From Candidatus Portnoybacteria bacterium CG10_big_fil_rev_8_21_14_0_10_36_7 (lineage in GTDB: Bacteria; Patescibacteriota; Minisyncoccia; Portnoybacterales; PFDW01), in contig PFDW01000065.1 of assembly GCA_002793835.1 (NCBI GenBank), positions 1 through 26,205 of the forward strand: a stretch of 26,205 nucleotides of DNA, written 5' to 3'. The notes below the pieces were generated by a model. The model did no database searches. It saw only the letters and a program-made list of their open reading frames with translations, and was not told the DNA's origin. Of this stretch, positions 997 through 24,725 are shown in pieces; position 1 is the stretch's first letter, and each line of letters begins with the position of its first letter. A program made the translations under genes and the position numbers.

Positions 997-1372
997 TTAT
1001 TTTTCTTTAGGTTTTATTACAAAATTCTTAACCACGTGGTACTCGCTTCCCTAAAGGCAAAATTCTACATCACTTGTTATTTCTTCAGTCAAAGATTCTA
1101 ATAATTTAAATATCTTTTCTTCGCCATCTTCGGATAACAAATAATAATTTTCCCCGATGTTTTACCAATTTATAGCGAACCTTATTATTTGCTGTTAGAT
1201 TTTCCCGCAACACTCCTTCGCCCATTGTTAAACCAACTGCAAACCAGAATCTGGATAGTATAAAACAAACAATCGCCGTCAACAATATTTGCACCCATTT
1301 CTTCCCACAAACCCAAGCGCACAGGATGAATAAACCGAACACTATTAACGAAAAAATAACTAAGTTAGTCAC
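997..1372 (-). pseudogene. Two-TM small membrane protein, frameshifted and nonsense-interrupted
   Basis: A GTG start at 1372 with an AAGGA leader gives an 88-residue frame ending at 1106. It has two hydrophobic segments (about residues 2-21 and 27-48) and then a short cytoplasmic part. After residue 74 the frame becomes an Arg-rich tail (VIRRWRRKDI) that does not look protein-like. If one G is removed from the GGGG run at 1152-1155, the reading continues as ENYYLLSEDGEEKIFKLLES and further acidic helical sequence to an in-frame TAG at 1051-1053. Past that it stays open as GSEYHVVKNFVIKPKEK to TAA at 997. I read this as one gene with a +1 insertion and a nonsense codon; a sequencing error in the G run is the alternative for the first lesion. 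No family is recognised. It has promoter P1 (1418-1446). Confidence 0.55.
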
Positions 1373-1417
1373 TCAAATCATCCTTATATTAAGTTTATCT
1401 ATCAAATAACTAAATTT

Positions 1418-1446
1418 AGAATAGCATATAAATACGATGCTGTCAA
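1418..1446 (-). promoter_or_regulatory. Promoter P1 of the repeated TTGACA module
   Basis: Minus strand TTGACA (1441-1446), 17-bp spacer, TATTCT (1418-1423). The spacer ends TATTTATATGC and the start region continues TTTAGTTATTT, both nearly identical to P3 (3136-3164). The predicted leader is about 40 nt and carries AAGGATGATTT ahead of the GTG at 1372, as in the P3 gene. Confidence 0.75.
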
Positions 1447-1449
1447 GCC

Positions 1450-1463
1450 CATGGTGCACCATG
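1450..1463. promoter_or_regulatory. 14-bp perfect palindrome between divergent promoters (operator candidate)
   Basis: CATGGTGCACCATG is its own reverse complement. It lies 4 bp from the -35 box of P1 (minus) and 15 bp from the -35 box of the plus-strand promoter at 1479-1507. A dimeric repressor bound here could control both. That role is inferred from position and symmetry only. Confidence 0.4.
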
Positions 1464-1478
1464 CGCAAACCCTGCTAG

Positions 1479-1507
1479 TTGACAATCTAAAATAGATATG
1501 CTATAAT
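1479..1507 (+). promoter_or_regulatory. Consensus promoter of the 1547 gene
   Basis: TTGACA (1479-1484), a 17-bp spacer and TATAAT (1502-1507) match the sigma-70 consensus exactly. The predicted leader is about 33 nt and carries GGAGG (1536-1540) 6 nt before the ATG at 1547. Confidence 0.85.
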
Positions 1508-1546
1508 AAATTTATAGTACATTAACACCTTACATGGAGGAACGTT

Positions 1547-1780
1547 ATGAAAAAGTTTCTAGTTGTAACTTTGGTTATGTGTGCATTAGTTGCAGTTCCA
1601 CAACAAGCTCGGTCTCAAGGATTTCTTTTTGGCTTCCTCTCAGGAAGCGCCTTTTCTGACGGCGACAGTGTCAATACGACACAATCGTCAAACATTATTT
1701 ATTCGTCAGAAAAATCTTCAAAAGTAATTGACCCTGTTGCGGTAAAAATGAGTGCAGTTACAAAGAATTTTGGCACTTGA
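1547..1780 (+). CDS. Small secreted protein, ends at TGA with a 54-codon open extension
   Basis: A 77-residue product with a clear signal peptide (MKKFLVVTLVMCALVAVPQQ, probable cleavage after ARS). A Gly/Phe-rich hydrophobic patch follows (GFLFGFLSGSAFSDGD), then a Ser/Lys-rich tail. The start is set by GGAGG at 6-nt spacing and a consensus promoter. The frame stops at TGA (1778-1780), but the same frame stays open for 54 more codons to TAA at 1943-1945, with protein-like sequence (GGDTRTNNIRQMFGESLSAS, then EILQVARIF). Either the gene has suffered a nonsense mutation from a ~132-codon ancestor, or the extension is a structured 3' untranslated region: two perfect inverted repeats lie in it. 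No family is recognised. A terminator at 1971-1998 closes a single-gene transcript. Confidence 0.6.
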   Translation: MKKFLVVTLVMCALVAVPQQARSQGFLFGFLSGSAFSDGDSVNTTQSSNIIYSSEKSSKVIDPVAVKMSAVTKNFGT

Positions 1781-1804
1781 GGAGGAGACACTAGAACGAA
1801 TAAT

Positions 1805-1826
1805 ATTCGCCAAATGTTTGGCGAAT
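1805..1826 (+). repeat. Perfect 10-bp inverted repeat with 2-nt centre
   Basis: ATTCGCCAAA and its exact reverse complement are separated by TG. The repeat begins 24 nt after the TGA of the 1547 gene and has no T-run behind it, so it is not a simple terminator. It would form a stable hairpin in the transcript. Confidence 0.8.
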
Positions 1827-1877
1827 CATTGAGTGCTAGCGAGGCAATAACCAATCTCGAGATATTACAAGTAGCCC

Positions 1878-1907
1878 GCATCTTTGGGTCTTCAGACCCA
1901 AAGATGC
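1878..1907 (+). repeat. Perfect 14-bp inverted repeat with 2-nt centre
   Basis: GCATCTTTGGGTCT and its exact reverse complement are separated by TC. It lies in the open extension of the 1547 frame and upstream of the true terminator. No T-run follows. Confidence 0.85.
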
Positions 1908-1970
1908 CACACTATTCTTTTCCTATACGGAGAATAATAATATAAAAACAGAATAATAAAGCAAAATCAA

Positions 1971-1998
1971 AAGCCAGAACATAATTCTGGCTTTTTTT
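1971..1998. terminator. Bidirectional terminator between convergent genes
   Basis: AAGCCAGAA (1971-1979), loop CATAA, TTCTGGCTT (1985-1993), then a T-run to 1998 on the plus strand. On the minus strand the same stem is followed by TTGATTTTG. It serves the 1547 transcript and the convergent broken gene at 2022-2332. Confidence 0.85.
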
Positions 1999-2021
1999 CT
2001 TATATATTATTTACTAAATTC

Positions 2022-2332
2022 TTAGACAGCAACTTTTTCTGCGATAGTCCACTCAAGAGTGCAAACCATATCATCTTATCCTGTTGTGACGACAAATGAT
2101 TTTCCATCGGTAAGAAGTTTTTCAACAAATGGACGCATAAGTTCATCGTCCATAATAACATCTTCTTTAATATCTATGTCGGGTTTTTTCTGTCCTTGTA
2201 ACAAGAACCATAAACTTTTCTCCCGTCCCAAAGTATTAATGATACTACAATAGGTCCGAGATGCTTTGGATCAAAAGATCCAGCTCATATAGCGTCTAGT
2301 AATACTGCTTTATTCCCAGCATTTCTTACCAT
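2022..2332 (-). pseudogene. Broken small cytoplasmic gene (two stops and a frameshift)
   Basis: The 5' end is intact: promoter P2, then AAGGAGG (2340-2346) 7 nt before an ATG at 2332. Translation starts MVRNAGNKAVLLDAI, hits TGA (2285-2287), and continues AGSFDPKHLGPIVVSLILWD and GRKVYG. After a frameshift near 2190-2230 it continues DIDIKEDVIMDDELM, RPFVEKLLTDGKSFVVTTG, TAA (2076-2078), DDMVCTLEWTIAEKVAV and a final stop at 2022-2024. The pieces are clearly protein-like, about 103 codons in all. I recognise no family. Several independent lesions make this a pseudogene rather than a recoded gene. It ends at the bidirectional terminator 1971-1998. Confidence 0.6.
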
Positions 2333-2379
2333 TAAAAAGCCTCCTTATATTAAATTTGAGTTTTGAAATAACTAAAAAC

Positions 2380-2408
2380 AGAATAACAAACAAACGATAT
2401 TCTGTCAA
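2380..2408 (-). promoter_or_regulatory. Promoter P2 of the repeated TTGACA module
   Basis: Minus strand TTGACA (2403-2408), 17-bp spacer, TATTCT (2380-2385), followed by GTTTTTAGTTATTT as in P3. The plus-strand block 2403-2419 is identical over 17 bp to 3159-3175, which spans the P3 -35 box and the last bases of tRNA-Glu. Confidence 0.75.
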
Positions 2409-2410
2409 TA

Positions 2411-2450
2411 CAGTAGCCCACTTGCGACGGTTTTGGAACCCCATTATAGC
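2411..2450 (-). pseudogene. Probable remnant of the 3' end of tRNA-Glu
   Basis: Read on the minus strand, this stretch contains ATAATGGGGTTCCAA followed by GGGCTACTG. The intact tRNA-Glu at 3170-3241 ends ATAATCGGGGTTCGAA ... GGGCTACTG. The T-arm is degraded and the rest of the tRNA is absent. I see no gene between this remnant and the terminator at 2548. Confidence 0.4.
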
Positions 2451-2547
2451 TGTAATATGTAGATGATAGGAATTTAGAAGGTCGGTGGATAAGGGGCTGT
2501 TGGGTAGTAGTATTAATAGTGCCTTTGGTTAGTGGAAATAAAATAGA

Positions 2548-2565
2548 CCTGTGATTGCTCACAGG
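2548..2565 (-). terminator. Terminator of the 2596-3087 gene
   Basis: CCTGTGA, a 4-nt loop and TCACAGG form a perfect 7-bp stem just past the stop codon at 2596. On the minus strand it is followed by TCTATTTTATTT. Confidence 0.65.
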
Positions 2566-2595
2566 CCATAGTTCTAACTTTTCCCTACAAGGGCT

Positions 2596-3087
2596 TTACG
2601 GAAATCCAATATACCCAGGATTAATAATTTTTATTCTGAATCCCTTACCACTCATATCAATAAAATTACCAATAAATACAGCTCCTTTTTCACTTATATT
2701 TTCTGGTACTTTATATACCAGAAATCCTCCCCCTTCTTGAATTAAATCAAAGTTATCGTAACCGTTAATTTTAAATTCAACCTTATCCCCTGCAGACTGT
2801 AATCCTTCCGCTCTAAATATGTTTTTAGAAACTATTAAAGACCAATGATCTCCCAACCTTAATATTTCAGCACCCCCTGCTGGATTGATCATCTCATAAA
2901 ATATCTGATTAAGCGTACTTAATTCTAAACGAGTCTTCGATAAATCATTTTCCAAAGTTATTCTTATGGGATTAGTCATTAATAAACTAGTAAGCATACC
3001 CACAACAAAGACTATAGCCAAAAATAATAAGAAAAAAGCGCCTACTACTTTTGATGGAACTCCTAGTATTTCTGATTTTTCACTCAT
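2596..3087 (-). CDS. Hypothetical single-pass membrane protein with extracytoplasmic domain
   Basis: 163 residues, intact. A short cytoplasmic N-terminus (MSEKSEILGVPSK) precedes one membrane segment (about residues 14-37, VGAFFLLFLAIVFVVGMLTS). After it come a short amphipathic/coiled stretch (ENDLSKTRLELSTLNQIFYE) and a beta-rich domain of about 100 residues ending GFRIKIINPGYIGFP. The ATG at 3087 is supported by GGAAGGA upstream. I recognise no family. It is the only gene of the three P-module genes here that is unbroken, so it may be the one still under selection. It lies directly downstream of tRNA-Glu on the same strand, with its own promoter P3. Confidence 0.8.
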   Translation of the reverse strand: MSEKSEILGVPSKVVGAFFLLFLAIVFVVGMLTSLLMTNPIRITLENDLSKTRLELSTLNQIFYEMINPAGGAEILRLGDHWSLIVSKNIFRAEGLQSAGDKVEFKINGYDNFDLIQEGGGFLVYKVPENISEKGAVFIGNFIDMSGKGFRIKIINPGYIGFP

Positions 3088-3135
3088 AAATCATCCTTCC
3101 ATTTAATAGTATTTATATATTAAATAACTAAAAAC

Positions 3136-3164
3136 AGCATAGCATATAAATACTATGATGTCAA
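3136..3164 (-). promoter_or_regulatory. Promoter P3 of the repeated TTGACA module
   Basis: Minus strand TTGACA (3159-3164), 17-bp spacer, TATGCT (3136-3141). The -35 box sits 5 bp from the end of tRNA-Glu. The block TATTTATATGCTAT and TTTAGTTATTT are shared with P1. The leader is about 42 nt, similar to those of P1 and P2. Confidence 0.75.
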
Positions 3165-3169
3165 TACAG

Positions 3170-3241
3170 TAGCCCTACGGGGAATCGAACCCCGATTATC
3201 GGCTTGAAAAGCCGGTGTCCTAACCGTTAGACGATAGGGCC
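3170..3241 (-). tRNA. tRNA-Glu(TTC)
   Basis: The minus strand folds as a full cloverleaf: acceptor GGCCCTA/TAGGGCT (G-T wobble at the first pair), D-arm GTC/GAC, anticodon loop TTTTCAA giving TTC (Glu), T-arm CGGGG TTCGAAT CCCCG, discriminator A. CCA is not encoded (CTG follows), so a CCA-adding enzyme is needed. A weak promoter (TTGTTT, 17 bp, TATTTT) may overlap the pyrF terminator just upstream. Confidence 0.93.
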
Positions 3242-3359: not shown

Positions 3360-4214
3360 CTAAACTGCTGAGTCAATCTCCTCAAGAATTTTTCTTACTG
3401 CGCCCACTGGCCCCCCAATGTTCGCCGGCGGATTTGTTATCGGCCGACCAATGACTAGATAATCAACGCCAGCTTTTATCGCCTCAGCTGGAGTTGCAAA
3501 TCTTTTTTGATCTCCAACCTCTGCCCATTCCGGACGAATACCTGGGGTAATAATTTTAAACTCCAGCCCGCAACAACGTCTTATTGCTTTTATTTCTCCT
3601 GGTGAAGCGACCACTCCATCCAGCCCACATTCCTGAGCCAAACGAGCAAGATGCCTTACTTAAAAACTCTCGATACACCGCTTTTCCATCAACTGCAATT
3701 CTTCCGTATCACTGATATTAGCCTCGTCATAAATGCCCATTTCAACCAGATCAATATACGAAAGACTAGTTAACATGGTCACACCAATAACCAGAGGCCT
3801 ATTTGAAGCCTTGATTACTCCTTCATTAACCATCTGGTCAATCTTTGCTTTTGTATCAAACATTGCTTTGCTACCAGACAAACAATGTACGTTAAACATT
3901 TTTATACCAAATTGAGAAATTTGCTCCGCCACTGCAACGATTGTATTTGGAATATCATGAAATTTTGTATCCATAAAGATACAATGTTTATTTTTCGATA
4001 CTTCGTCGAAAATCCGGAAAAATTGTCTCCTGTCCCGCAACGCATATGCTGAATCATTACTTTTTGATGCAAGTAATACCAAGAAAGAATGGAAAACAAA
4101 TTCCAGTCCAATCTTAAACATCCCAACATGCGGTAAGAGCTTCTCCACAAGCTTGCCAGCTTTTTTGATATCGCTCACATCCAAAGCAACTATTATCCTA
4201 TCTTTCGCCTGTAT
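3360..4214 (-). pseudogene. pyrF: Orotidine 5'-phosphate decarboxylase, broken start and internal stop
   Basis: PyrF converts OMP to UMP, the last step of de novo pyrimidine synthesis. The reading QAKDRIIVALDVS, the catalytic DTKFHDIPNT (about residues 80-90), the substrate loop TPGIRPEWA and GRPITNP identify it firmly. Two lesions are visible. The codon at the expected start (4212-4214, 6 nt after GGAGAG) is ATA instead of ATG. An in-frame TAA (3657-3659, codon 186) then interrupts ESF-stop-VRHLARLAQECGLDGVV, after which the frame resumes to TAG at 3360. An in-frame TTG at 4250 could serve as a start but has no ribosome binding site. The enzyme's C-terminal half carries the phosphate-binding loop, so the N-terminal 185 residues alone should be inactive. 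It has its own promoter and terminator and follows broken pyrD. Confidence 0.85.
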
Positions 4215-4259
4215 ATTTATCTCTCCTCTTAATAAATTGTTAAGGGCCAAATTTATCTA

Positions 4260-4297: not shown

Positions 4298-4315
4298 CCC
4301 GCGTTTACTTGCGGG
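4298..4315 (-). terminator. Possible terminator of pyrD
   Basis: CCCGC, an 8-nt loop and GCGGG form a hairpin overlapping the stop of the pyrD remnant. It is followed on the minus strand by CCTTGTTACTTG, resembling the flank of the pyrF terminator (ACCTTGTTTTTTT). The T-run is weak. Confidence 0.4.
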
Positions 4316-4799
4316 ACTGGCTGTTACTTAATGCATCATCTTTTATAAACTGGCTTGCTTCCAAACGATGGTAATTCTTAATGTTAGAATAAGACACATT
4401 AATCTCCACGCCCGCCAGATCAAATCTATCCACCATTTTTGCAATATATTCCATTTCCTTAATGTCTTGAGCGAAAACCGATAAAACCAACGGATTATTT
4501 TCACGACTTACATAGGGGCCAACTGCTTTAGCCCACCACTCAATACCTTTGCTTCGAGAGCTGTTAAAATGAATAACGCCACCATTTAATAAACAAACAC
4601 CACTAAAAAACTTTTTTACAGAACAATTTTTTGACTCAGAAAATCTTGTGACTGTTTCTGCAAATACCGTAAACCAAGACGACTTAATTATACCGCAGGC
4701 TATTAAAGGCTTTTGCCACCACCAGCCTTTCCCATCGTAACCCAAAGCGCCACTGGTTATTGCATATTCTATAATATGCCCATTGAGTAGCTAAATCAC
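4305..4799 (-). pseudogene. pyrD: Dihydroorotate dehydrogenase-like, nonsense at codon 3 and C-terminally truncated
   Basis: PyrD-type enzymes oxidise dihydroorotate to orotate with FMN. The reading YAITSGALGYDGKGWWWQKP near the start, then GIEWWAKAVGP, NPLVLSVFAQDIKEM and FDLAGVEINVSYSNIKNY, fits the N-terminal half of a DHODH-type TIM barrel. AGAAGGTGG (about 4805-4813) precedes GTG at 4797-4799, but codon 3 is TAG (4791-4793). The same frame then stays open to 4305. Only about 160 codons remain against roughly 300 in full enzymes, and the C-terminal FMN-phosphate region is absent. A TTG at 4745 is the first usable start after the TAG. Promoter and ribosome binding site are still recognisable, which points to recent decay. 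Assignment to the PyrD family is likely; exact subfamily uncertain. Confidence 0.7.
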
Positions 4800-4837
4800 A
4801 CTAACCACCTTCTTTCAATTATTAAAGTTCCAACTGG

Positions 4838-4887: not shown

Positions 4888-6033
4888 ATGAAGATTTTAG
4901 CCATTGAAACTTCTTGCGATGACACGGGAATTGCCATTTTGGATATAGATGACAAGGGATTTTCGATTTTAACAAATTTAATTTCTTCGCAAATCGCAAT
5001 ACACGCACCTTGGGGTGGGGTTGTCCCCTCTCTAGCTAAGCGAGAACACCAAAAAAGTTTAGTGCCACTTTTAACAGAAGCCTTCGAACAATCTAATTTA
5101 ATTAACAAATCAAAAGTTTCAATATCATCCGATAAGGTCTCAACCCTAGATAATATTCTTGAACGCGAAACAGAATTATACCCACAATTACTAGATTTCA
5201 TTTCAAAATATGCCACACCAGACATTGACGCCATAGCCGTCACCCAAGGGCCTGGGCTTGAACCAGCTCTTTGGGTCGGCGTTAATTTTGCTCGAGCCTT
5301 AGCTTTTGCTTGGGGCAAGCCCCTAATTGCAGTGAGTCATTTAGAAGGACATGTCTTTGCATCTCTGGCTAAAAAAATTCAAACGCAAGGATTTAACTTA
5401 GACATATTCCCTGCCATAAATTTATTAGTTTCCGGTGGACATACTCAACTAATTTTAATAAAGAATTTTGCTGATTACGAATTACTTGGCGAAACATTAG
5501 ATGACGCCGCCGGAGAATCCTTTGATAAAGTTGCCAAACTTTTAGGGCTTCCCTACCCAGGAGGTCCAGAAATTTCCAAGTTAGCCAAGCTAGGGAATCC
5601 GCACGCATTTGATTTTCCGCGTCCGATGCTACAACACAAAAATTATGAGTTCTCTTTCTCGGGTTTAAAAACTGCAGTACTTTATACAATAAAAAAAATT
5701 CTTAAGATTACAGACAGTATCAAGCAAGATATTTCAGCATCTTTTGAAAATTCAGCCATAGAAGTATTAGTTAAAAAAACAATTCGAACAACCGACGAAT
5801 TTAATGTTAAAACTGTTATGATTTCTGGAGGAGTTGCAGCTAATGAGAAACTTCGATTAGACCTTGCTAAGGCCTTAAAAGAAAAAAATGCAGAAATTGA
5901 ATTTTTATCACCTGACCAAAATCTCTGTACCGACAACGCTTTAATGATTGCCTTGGTTGGATACTTAAAATATAAAAACGGAAAATTATCTAACTGGCAA
6001 ACACTCGAGGCTAAAGCAAACCTAGGGATATAA
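4888..6033 (+). CDS. tsaD: tRNA N6-threonylcarbamoyladenosine transferase TsaD
   Basis: TsaD transfers the threonylcarbamoyl group from TC-AMP to A37 of ANN-decoding tRNAs, working with TsaB and TsaE in the cytoplasm. The 381-residue product begins MKILAIETSCDDTGIAIL, the ASKHA phosphate-1 motif. It has the metal-binding HLEGH (about residues 151-155), SGGHTQL (about 180) and MISGGVAANEKLR (about 311). An insertion around residues 70-110 (KVSISSDKVSTLDNILERE) between the N-terminal fold and the GPGLEPALWVG motif lengthens it compared with the ~340-residue E. coli enzyme; such insertions are familiar in CPR TsaD. The start is set by the leaderless promoter. It is a single-gene unit closed by the hairpin at 6032-6059. 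Confidence 0.96.
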   Translation: MKILAIETSCDDTGIAILDIDDKGFSILTNLISSQIAIHAPWGGVVPSLAKREHQKSLVPLLTEAFEQSNLINKSKVSISSDKVSTLDNILERETELYPQLLDFISKYATPDIDAIAVTQGPGLEPALWVGVNFARALAFAWGKPLIAVSHLEGHVFASLAKKIQTQGFNLDIFPAINLLVSGGHTQLILIKNFADYELLGETLDDAAGESFDKVAKLLGLPYPGGPEISKLAKLGNPHAFDFPRPMLQHKNYEFSFSGLKTAVLYTIKKILKITDSIKQDISASFENSAIEVLVKKTIRTTDEFNVKTVMISGGVAANEKLRLDLAKALKEKNAEIEFLSPDQNLCTDNALMIALVGYLKYKNGKLSNWQTLEAKANLGI

Positions 6034-23511: not shown

Positions 23512-23583
23512 GGGCAATTAGCTCAGTGGTAGAGCGCTTCCATGACACGGAAGAGGCCACTGGTTCAATCCCAGTATTGCCCA
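23512..23583 (+). tRNA. tRNA-Val(GAC)
   Basis: Acceptor GGGCAAT/ATTGCCC, D-arm GCTC/GAGC, anticodon stem CTTCC/GGAAG with loop ATGACAC giving GAC (Val), T-arm ACTGG TTCAATC CCAGT, discriminator A. CCA is not encoded. It shares a transcript with tRNA-Ile, 41 bp apart. Confidence 0.94.
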
Positions 23584-23618
23584 CACTCAAAACTCTTTTT
23601 CTAAAGAGTTTTGAGTGT
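23583..23618 (+). terminator. Terminator of the tRNA unit
   Basis: ACACTCAAAACTCTTT (23583-23598), loop TTCT, and its exact reverse complement (23603-23618). The stem starts at the discriminator base of tRNA-Val, so it must be trimmed to make the 3' end. Its right arm also holds the -35 box of the next gene. Confidence 0.75.
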
Positions 23619-23639
23619 TATAAAATTATATGTTATTAT
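23611..23639 (+). promoter_or_regulatory. Promoter of the 23646 gene (leaderless)
   Basis: TTGAGT (23611-23616), 17-bp spacer, TATTAT (23634-23639), with the ATG 6 nt downstream. The -35 box is embedded in the tRNA terminator. Confidence 0.5.
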
Positions 23640-23645
23640 AAGAAC

Positions 23646-24725
23646 ATGCCAAACGAACAAATCATTCAATATATAAAAAGTGCCAAACAAGAAGGTCTAG
23701 CTGATCAGCAAATAAAAGAAGCCCTACAAAAAGCAAATTGGCTAGAAGCCGAAATAGATATTGTTATGCAGTCTGCGAATAATATCCAACAACCAATAAA
23801 TACCAGCGTCTCAACGAAACAACCTCTCAAGAGAGCGTTACAATTGATTAGAGAATCTATAAACATTTTCAAGCAAATTGTCTGGAAAGTAGCTTTGATT
23901 GAATTAACCCCAATAATTTTAGCAGCCCCTCTAATTCTTGTTTTAATCGCTCGGTCCATCAATTTAGCAGGCATCAATCAAACTAACTATGTAACTGAAT
24001 CCACCCCATGGTTCATCATTATACTCTTGATTATCTACATACCACTTATAGCCATTTTCAGTTTTTCTTCTTTGGTTGCCACATTATTTATTATCAAAGA
24101 ACGTGCCAATCTGAAAGAAGGTGTGTAGGCAAACATCAAAGACGCTTATCGCTTTGCATTCCCAAGAATAATTTCATTTTTTTGGGTCGATGTAGTAACT
24201 GCTTTAATTACAGCAACAGGCTATTTGTTATTTATTATACCATGAATAATTTTTAACACTTGGTTTGTATTCGGAACATATATTTTAATTTATGAAGGCC
24301 TCAAAGGAATTAGAGTTCTTCGGTACAGCCGAGAATTAGTCCGCCATAATTGGTGGGCAATTTTTTATAGAGCATTTATTTTTGTAATAATTTCTTTAAT
24401 CTTTAATCTAATAACTACTATTGATCAAAAATTTTTAAAAACTGGTTTTTTGTCTTCCGTCGCGAATATTCTTAGCTTTATTTACTGGCTCTGCTTATCA
24501 CTTATTTTGCCAATCTACATGAGCATACTTTATGAAAATATAAAAGAGACCAAAGGACTAATTAATACTCAAGCCAAAAGTAAAGCGTGGTATATTGTTA
24601 GCATGATACTAGCGCCAGTTCTCATGACCTTATTTATGACAATAATGGTTTATATCGCCGTAACTATAAGCAAACAACTCAAAATACAAAACTCGCAATT
24701 CATTAACACGCTCGAAAATGATTAG
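23646..24725 (+). pseudogene. Polytopic membrane protein gene with two in-frame stops
   Basis: One frame runs 360 codons from ATG 23646 to TAG 24723-24725, broken by TAG at codon 161 (24126-24128) and TGA at codon 200 (24243-24245). The N-terminus (IIQYIKSAKQEGLADQQIKE, ALQKANWLEAEI) is a small helical domain seen at the start of many CPR membrane proteins. About six hydrophobic segments follow. TGA replaces a residue in FIIP-stop-IIFNTWFVFGTY, where related membrane domains commonly have IPGIIF, so GGA to TGA is the likely change. The downstream parts remain protein-like, with charged loops between helices. The first 160 residues could still be made from the leaderless promoter. Biological role unknown. 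Confidence 0.65.

Follow-up and report, generated by a model that had tools for sequence, protein, structure and literature searches.

A candidate fusion of intrinsic terminator and promoter in front of small unrelated genes of a Portnoybacteria genome

The contig of 26,205 nucleotides analysed here (the window), one of the 81 contigs of a 713-kb Portnoybacteria genome (87% complete, 6.6% contamination), carries three promoter blocks in front of small genes, and a fourth is found on another contig. We propose that this block is probably a fusion of an intrinsic terminator and a sigma70-type promoter, which would end the transcript arriving from upstream and start that of a small gene. The -35 and -10 elements occupy the two arms of one inverted repeat, usually with T5 after it. 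The blocks are homologous copies, the arms of the dyad co-vary across genomes, the dyad is absent from the ordinary promoters sampled, and some blocks abut tRNA genes.

The pattern TTGACA-N14-TGnTATnCT-N3-TTTAGTTATTT occurs exactly at three sites of the window, all on the minus strand (P1, P2 and P3, Table 1), and was matched in none of 100 dinucleotide shuffles, even allowing 3 mismatches, in agreement with the three near-identical blocks of the original prediction. Their hexamers match the consensus at 10 of 12 positions, with a spacing of 17 and TG before the -10, as in promoters of the sigma70 type; the only other exact TTGACA-17-TATNNT in the window is the plus-strand promoter of gene C. 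Alignment of the flanks shows that the P1 and P3 spacers (15/17 identical) and the P1 and P2 5' UTRs are related, each similarity being reached in 0 of 2000 shuffles, while the likeness of P2 to P3 is weak in the spacer (9/17 identical, shuffle fraction 0.054) and in the UTR (0.059). Judged by their sequences, P1, P2 and P3 are homologous copies.

Table 1 Features of the tRNA-Glu array in the window.
Feature	Position	Strand	Description
Gene B	1106..1372	-	88-aa ORF, then frame change and further stops
P1, promoter block without terminator hairpin	1404..1446	-	AAA replaces GTT before TTTAGTT; -2.6 kcal/mol, z +0.4
Gene C promoter	1479..1507	+	12/12 consensus; divergent to P1
Gene C	1547..1780	+	77 aa; frame continues past TGA
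Terminator-like hairpin between genes C and D	1969..1995	.	scored on both strands
Gene D	2022..2334	-	in-frame stops and frame change (three-frame reading)
P2, dyad promoter block	2366..2408	-	exact pattern; -9.6 kcal/mol, z -3.9
tRNA-Glu 3'-half relic	2403..2443	-	last 17 letters equal the tRNA end plus P3 -35; overlaps P2 -35
Terminator-like hairpin behind gene E	2546..2567	-	
Gene E	2596..3087	-	intact, 163-aa ORFan; hydrophobic stretch near N-terminus (by-eye reading)
P3, dyad promoter block	3122..3164	-	exact pattern; -35 at 3159-3164, -10 at 3136-3141; hairpin then TTTTT; -10.9 kcal/mol, z -3.3
tRNA-Glu(TTC)	3169..3241	-	CCA absent from DNA; ARAGORN; Rfam RF00005, 63.9 bits

From the position of tRNA-Glu it follows that the -35 of P3 begins after a gap of 4 nt, and the tRNA transcript would run straight into P3. 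As had been noted originally, the 17-mer at 2403-2419 is exactly that at 3159-3175; it occurs twice in the window, linking the 3' end of tRNA-Glu with the block both at P3 and at P2, and flanks the 756-bp unit of gene E. The degraded copy of the tRNA 3' half upstream of P2 was likewise recovered, with only 4 of 2000 shuffles scoring as well. A relic of the whole tRNA at this place was rejected: the 5' half is at chance (357/2000 shuffles) and Rfam reports no tRNA there. No tRNA relic was found before P1, where 1480 of 2000 shuffles do equally well. The kinship of the P1/P3 spacers and the P1/P2 leaders, the 17-mer of P2 and P3 and the tRNA 3' half before P2 fit an array formed by local duplication of a segment comprising tRNA end, promoter and leader.

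The fourth block of this genome, on contig C3, is separated from tRNA-Asp by 5 nt and precedes an ORF of 89 aa; of the 29 tRNAs found in the genome, 2 are thus followed by a block. The three small genes described for the array are only partly present as such: gene E is intact, whereas the frames assumed at 997-1372 and 2022-2332 are broken by stops and frame changes. The genes behind the blocks are unrelated to one another. In an all-against-all BLASTP of 29 downstream proteins the best pair, duplicate records aside, consists of gene E and a protein of L077 (23% over 104 aa, E 0.005-0.007). Gene E has no Pfam match, and among 5.8 billion proteins the search found, at its sensitivity, only gene E itself; for the C3 gene, too, it found only the gene itself. 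A terminator hairpin stands behind both genes, and these units therefore look self-contained, like morons; across the blocks such a hairpin follows the small gene in 10 of 29 cases, those of this genome included. A general leader motif plus Shine-Dalgarno (SD) site gave 3 matches in this genome and 5 for the control, and was dropped.

Disrupted frames are not confined to the genes behind the blocks. In-frame stops or frame changes were read, partly by eye, at 997-1372 (-), 1547-1900 (+), 2022-2334 (-), 3360-4250 (-), 4305-4800 (-) and 23526-24256 (+), and the disrupted genes of the window include a pyrF-like gene (OMPdecase) split by a TAA within one frame. Judging from the letters, either real decay or sequence error may account for them.

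We then consider the block in other genomes, where its arms carry different letters. A pattern fixing the -35, the -10 and TTTTTAGTTnTT, with at most 2 mismatches, yielded 84 unselected matches in 64 of 383 genomes of the class, and all of them were used in place of a hand-picked set of 36 blocks. Positions 6-13 were paired with 20-27 and the arms permuted 10,000 times: with related genomes treated as independent, as in the neighbour statistics below, 286 of 672 cells are paired compared with 241.1 after permutation (sd 9.0, largest 274), and none of the 10,000 permutations reaches 286. Leaving out the genome of the window, 262 cells are paired compared with 224.4, again a value reached by 0 of 10,000 permutations. 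The columns fixed by the pattern cannot cause this excess, because permuting fixed columns changes nothing. At least 6 of the 8 pairs form at 19 of the 84 sites on the true axis, compared with 1-3 of 84 when the axis was slid to six other positions; these 19 dyad-bearing blocks belong to 14 of the 383 genomes, 6 in the order of the window (23 searched) and 8 elsewhere (360 searched). Within each of three genomes (G006, G015 and G065) the arms differ yet compensate, which argues for a folded RNA and against the operator of one protein. A Xer/dif-type site was also considered for the 28-bp dyad and set aside because of these differences within genomes.

On the other hand, ordinary promoters of the form TTGACA-17-TANNNT (20 sites in 400 kb of three relatives, one of which, L188, is also among the 84 matches) form only 0-5 of the 8 pairs. 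Matches to a similar pattern outside the named Patescibacteria (n=40) reach at most 5/8, whereas at least 6/8 are formed by 9 of the 15 matches in named Patescibacteria, a set that is not independent of the 84 since several of its records carry the same sequences. By their names, the closest pattern matches are from Portnoybacteria, Yanofskybacteria, Staskawiczbacteria and others. Under a stricter pattern, neither the 263 genomes searched from other classes of the phylum nor 22 additional ones from the class itself gave a match. The dyad is lacking at 65 of the 84 pattern matches, many of which are probably due to chance, given the 14 matches (counted by eye) obtained with a reversed control pattern. 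Three viral contigs contain the pattern, with four matches, two of them in one contig. A 12-kb viral contig (L088) has two copies of the same class of promoter with dyads, at 2735-2773 and 5906-5944, and an SD site and an ORF follow each of them.

Folded as RNA, the 19 dyad sites have a median minimum free energy of -11.6 kcal/mol versus -2.0 for the 65 others, and the stems are AU-rich. A T-run directly follows 16 of the 19 dyads, a conservation that, like that of AGTT, is partly by construction because T5 and AGTT are in the search pattern. A promoter in register was present in 0 of 144 background terminator-like hairpins. In our genome P3, P2 and the C3 copy (z of the fold -5.2; Table 1 for the others) combine a co-directional neighbour with a hairpin, and P1 combines the divergent neighbour gene C with the absence of one; the best reading is that P1 has lost the hairpin that P2, P3 and the tRNA-Asp copy keep. 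Across genomes, the nearest upstream gene is co-directional at 16 of 19 dyad sites versus 29 of 50 others, a marginal difference (p 0.051) computed on 69 of the 84 rows, 12 inside a longer ORF and 3 without an upstream feature having been dropped and the dyad rows P2 and G250:C4 kept despite overlap with a predicted ORF. One genome (G017) has a strong dyad (7/8 pairs) with a divergent upstream neighbour.

Based on these results, the block could work as follows. The left arm holds TTGACA and the right one TATnCT, usually followed by T5 and AGTT; RNA arriving from upstream would fold into a hairpin with a U-run and stop. The same letters, as DNA, would act as a sigma70-type promoter with TG before the -10, and from the spacing transcription would start near the A of AGTT. 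In the transcript one small gene would follow a short leader that includes a Shine-Dalgarno site, and at tRNA-Glu and tRNA-Asp the terminator of the tRNA would be the promoter of the next gene. The unit of tRNA end, block and leader would have been duplicated locally, its copies now fronting unrelated small genes, two of them frame-broken.

A tRNA lies within 30 nt upstream of 5 of the 19 dyad sites versus 2 of the 65 other sites (p 0.006, related genomes being treated as independent and two genomes, G000 and G065, supplying 4 of the 5 cases), and in relatives blocks adjoin tRNA-Glu, -Asp, -His and -Lys. In these cases the dyad begins 0-17 nt behind the tRNA, and the tRNA transcript must therefore run into it. 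At the 7 tRNA-Glu loci examined in relatives, where the original prediction had proposed to look for it, the block was not found; at one of them (L007) an ordinary TTGACA-17-TATACT promoter lies roughly 115-120 nt downstream.

Other arrangements were observed around tRNA genes. Two more tRNAs of our genome (L103 1574-1993 and L091 1574-1993, G000:C76) are followed by small genes with a strong SD site, and the L103 leader holds AACAGAATAA and AGTTCTTA, perhaps a block in decay. Two blocks of another genome (L155 and L156, G250) lie 85 nt behind tRNA-His and 392 nt behind tRNA-Met and have upstream letters in common, with CAAGAGCGGGA immediately before the block. Just behind tRNA-Glu on the minus strand of L006 (G008) and L009 (G036) stands an element with strong structure, GAACGCCGGAG...GAGGCGGTG (some 160 nt, about -61 kcal/mol), at whose end the 3' end of tRNA-Glu is repeated; it matches no new Rfam family convincingly, and its 7 viral pattern matches look like chance on a by-eye reading. 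In G008 the tRNA 5' half, too, is present as a copy, at a distance of about 300 bp.

Other explanations have to be weighed against this reading. The dyad could be the site of a dimeric repressor between -35 and -10, with the small genes as its regulon, which would suit a promoter spanned by the dyad, strong hexamers and few copies per genome before small accessory genes. We regard such an operator as unlikely: fixed half-sites would be expected, but the arms change and compensate within single genomes, a T-run follows most dyads, and P1 keeps its hexamers and leader without the dyad. A plain local duplication of promoter and leader, with a hairpin of no functional weight, would agree with the likeness of the P1/P3 spacers and P1/P2 leaders but leaves the co-varying dyad of other genomes unexplained, and is in our view improbable.

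The original prediction itself was a cassette collector at the 3' end of tRNA-Glu, weighed here as units that each entered a tRNA 3' end through site-specific insertion. Tandem related units beside tRNA-Glu, the piece of tRNA at P2 and the fourth copy at tRNA-Asp are indeed present, and the exact repeat of the tRNA end around the E unit, the several tRNAs with blocks here and in relatives and the unrelated ORFans all speak for it. The block as a mark of tRNA-derived insertion is not supported: a tRNA is absent within 30 nt of 14 of the 19 dyad blocks, a distribution close to the one, blocks before unrelated genes without tRNA sequence, that the prediction had set against itself. Behind five other tRNA-adjacent blocks the tRNA end did not recur within the flanks examined (only about 140-730 nt for three), and the leaders are homologous up to the start codon, which duplication explains better. 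The original prediction had also proposed to look for a tyrosine recombinase elsewhere, and no dedicated integrase was found: the array has none, and the only two tyrosine recombinases found in the genome (Phage_integrase matches) look like housekeeping Xer proteins on a by-eye reading of their sequence and neighbours, although an integrase could be missing from a genome that is 87% complete. Because the block is not generally tied to tRNAs, no dedicated integrase was found and seven tRNA-Glu loci lack the block, we keep the collector as a rival, and a rather unlikely one, instead of the main reading. Least probable of all, we think, is that the folded block, besides being a promoter, serves as an exchange site recognised by its structure, where recombination or template switching would swap new small genes in behind a promoter that is already in place and insulates itself, and where tRNA 3' ends and other gene ends of this lineage would act as nurseries of ORFans.

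Read as a terminator fused with a promoter, the block resembles several known systems and departs from each. It shares with Rho-independent terminators the stem-loop and U-run where a transcript ends, here often right behind a tRNA, but its AU-rich stem carries both promoter hexamers in register and its termination is a prediction. It has the TTGACA, 17 nt and TGnTATnCT of a sigma70 promoter with TG before the -10, yet its spacer and -10 are constrained by mutual pairing, unlike those of the ordinary promoters of three relatives. Phage morons are self-contained accessory gene units; like them, each unit here couples an unrelated small gene to a strong promoter of its own and, for gene E and the C3 gene, to a terminator behind it, whereas the block would double as the terminator of the upstream gene, and a terminator follows the small gene in a minority of cases. 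Integron cassettes, too, line up unrelated small genes in tandem and separate them by a structured element whose arms co-vary, but no integron integrase was recognised here, and the present element is located 5' of each gene and contains a promoter. In the literature searched, which covers the field in part, there was no mention of a promoter inside a terminator in Patescibacteria.

If this reading is right, reduced genomes would pack a stop and a start of transcription into the same ~30 letters, with the promoter spacer held by base pairing. Insulated units of small genes, mostly ORFans, could then be recognised by the sequence of this block in bacteria that are difficult to culture, and the terminator-promoter would be a directly testable part.
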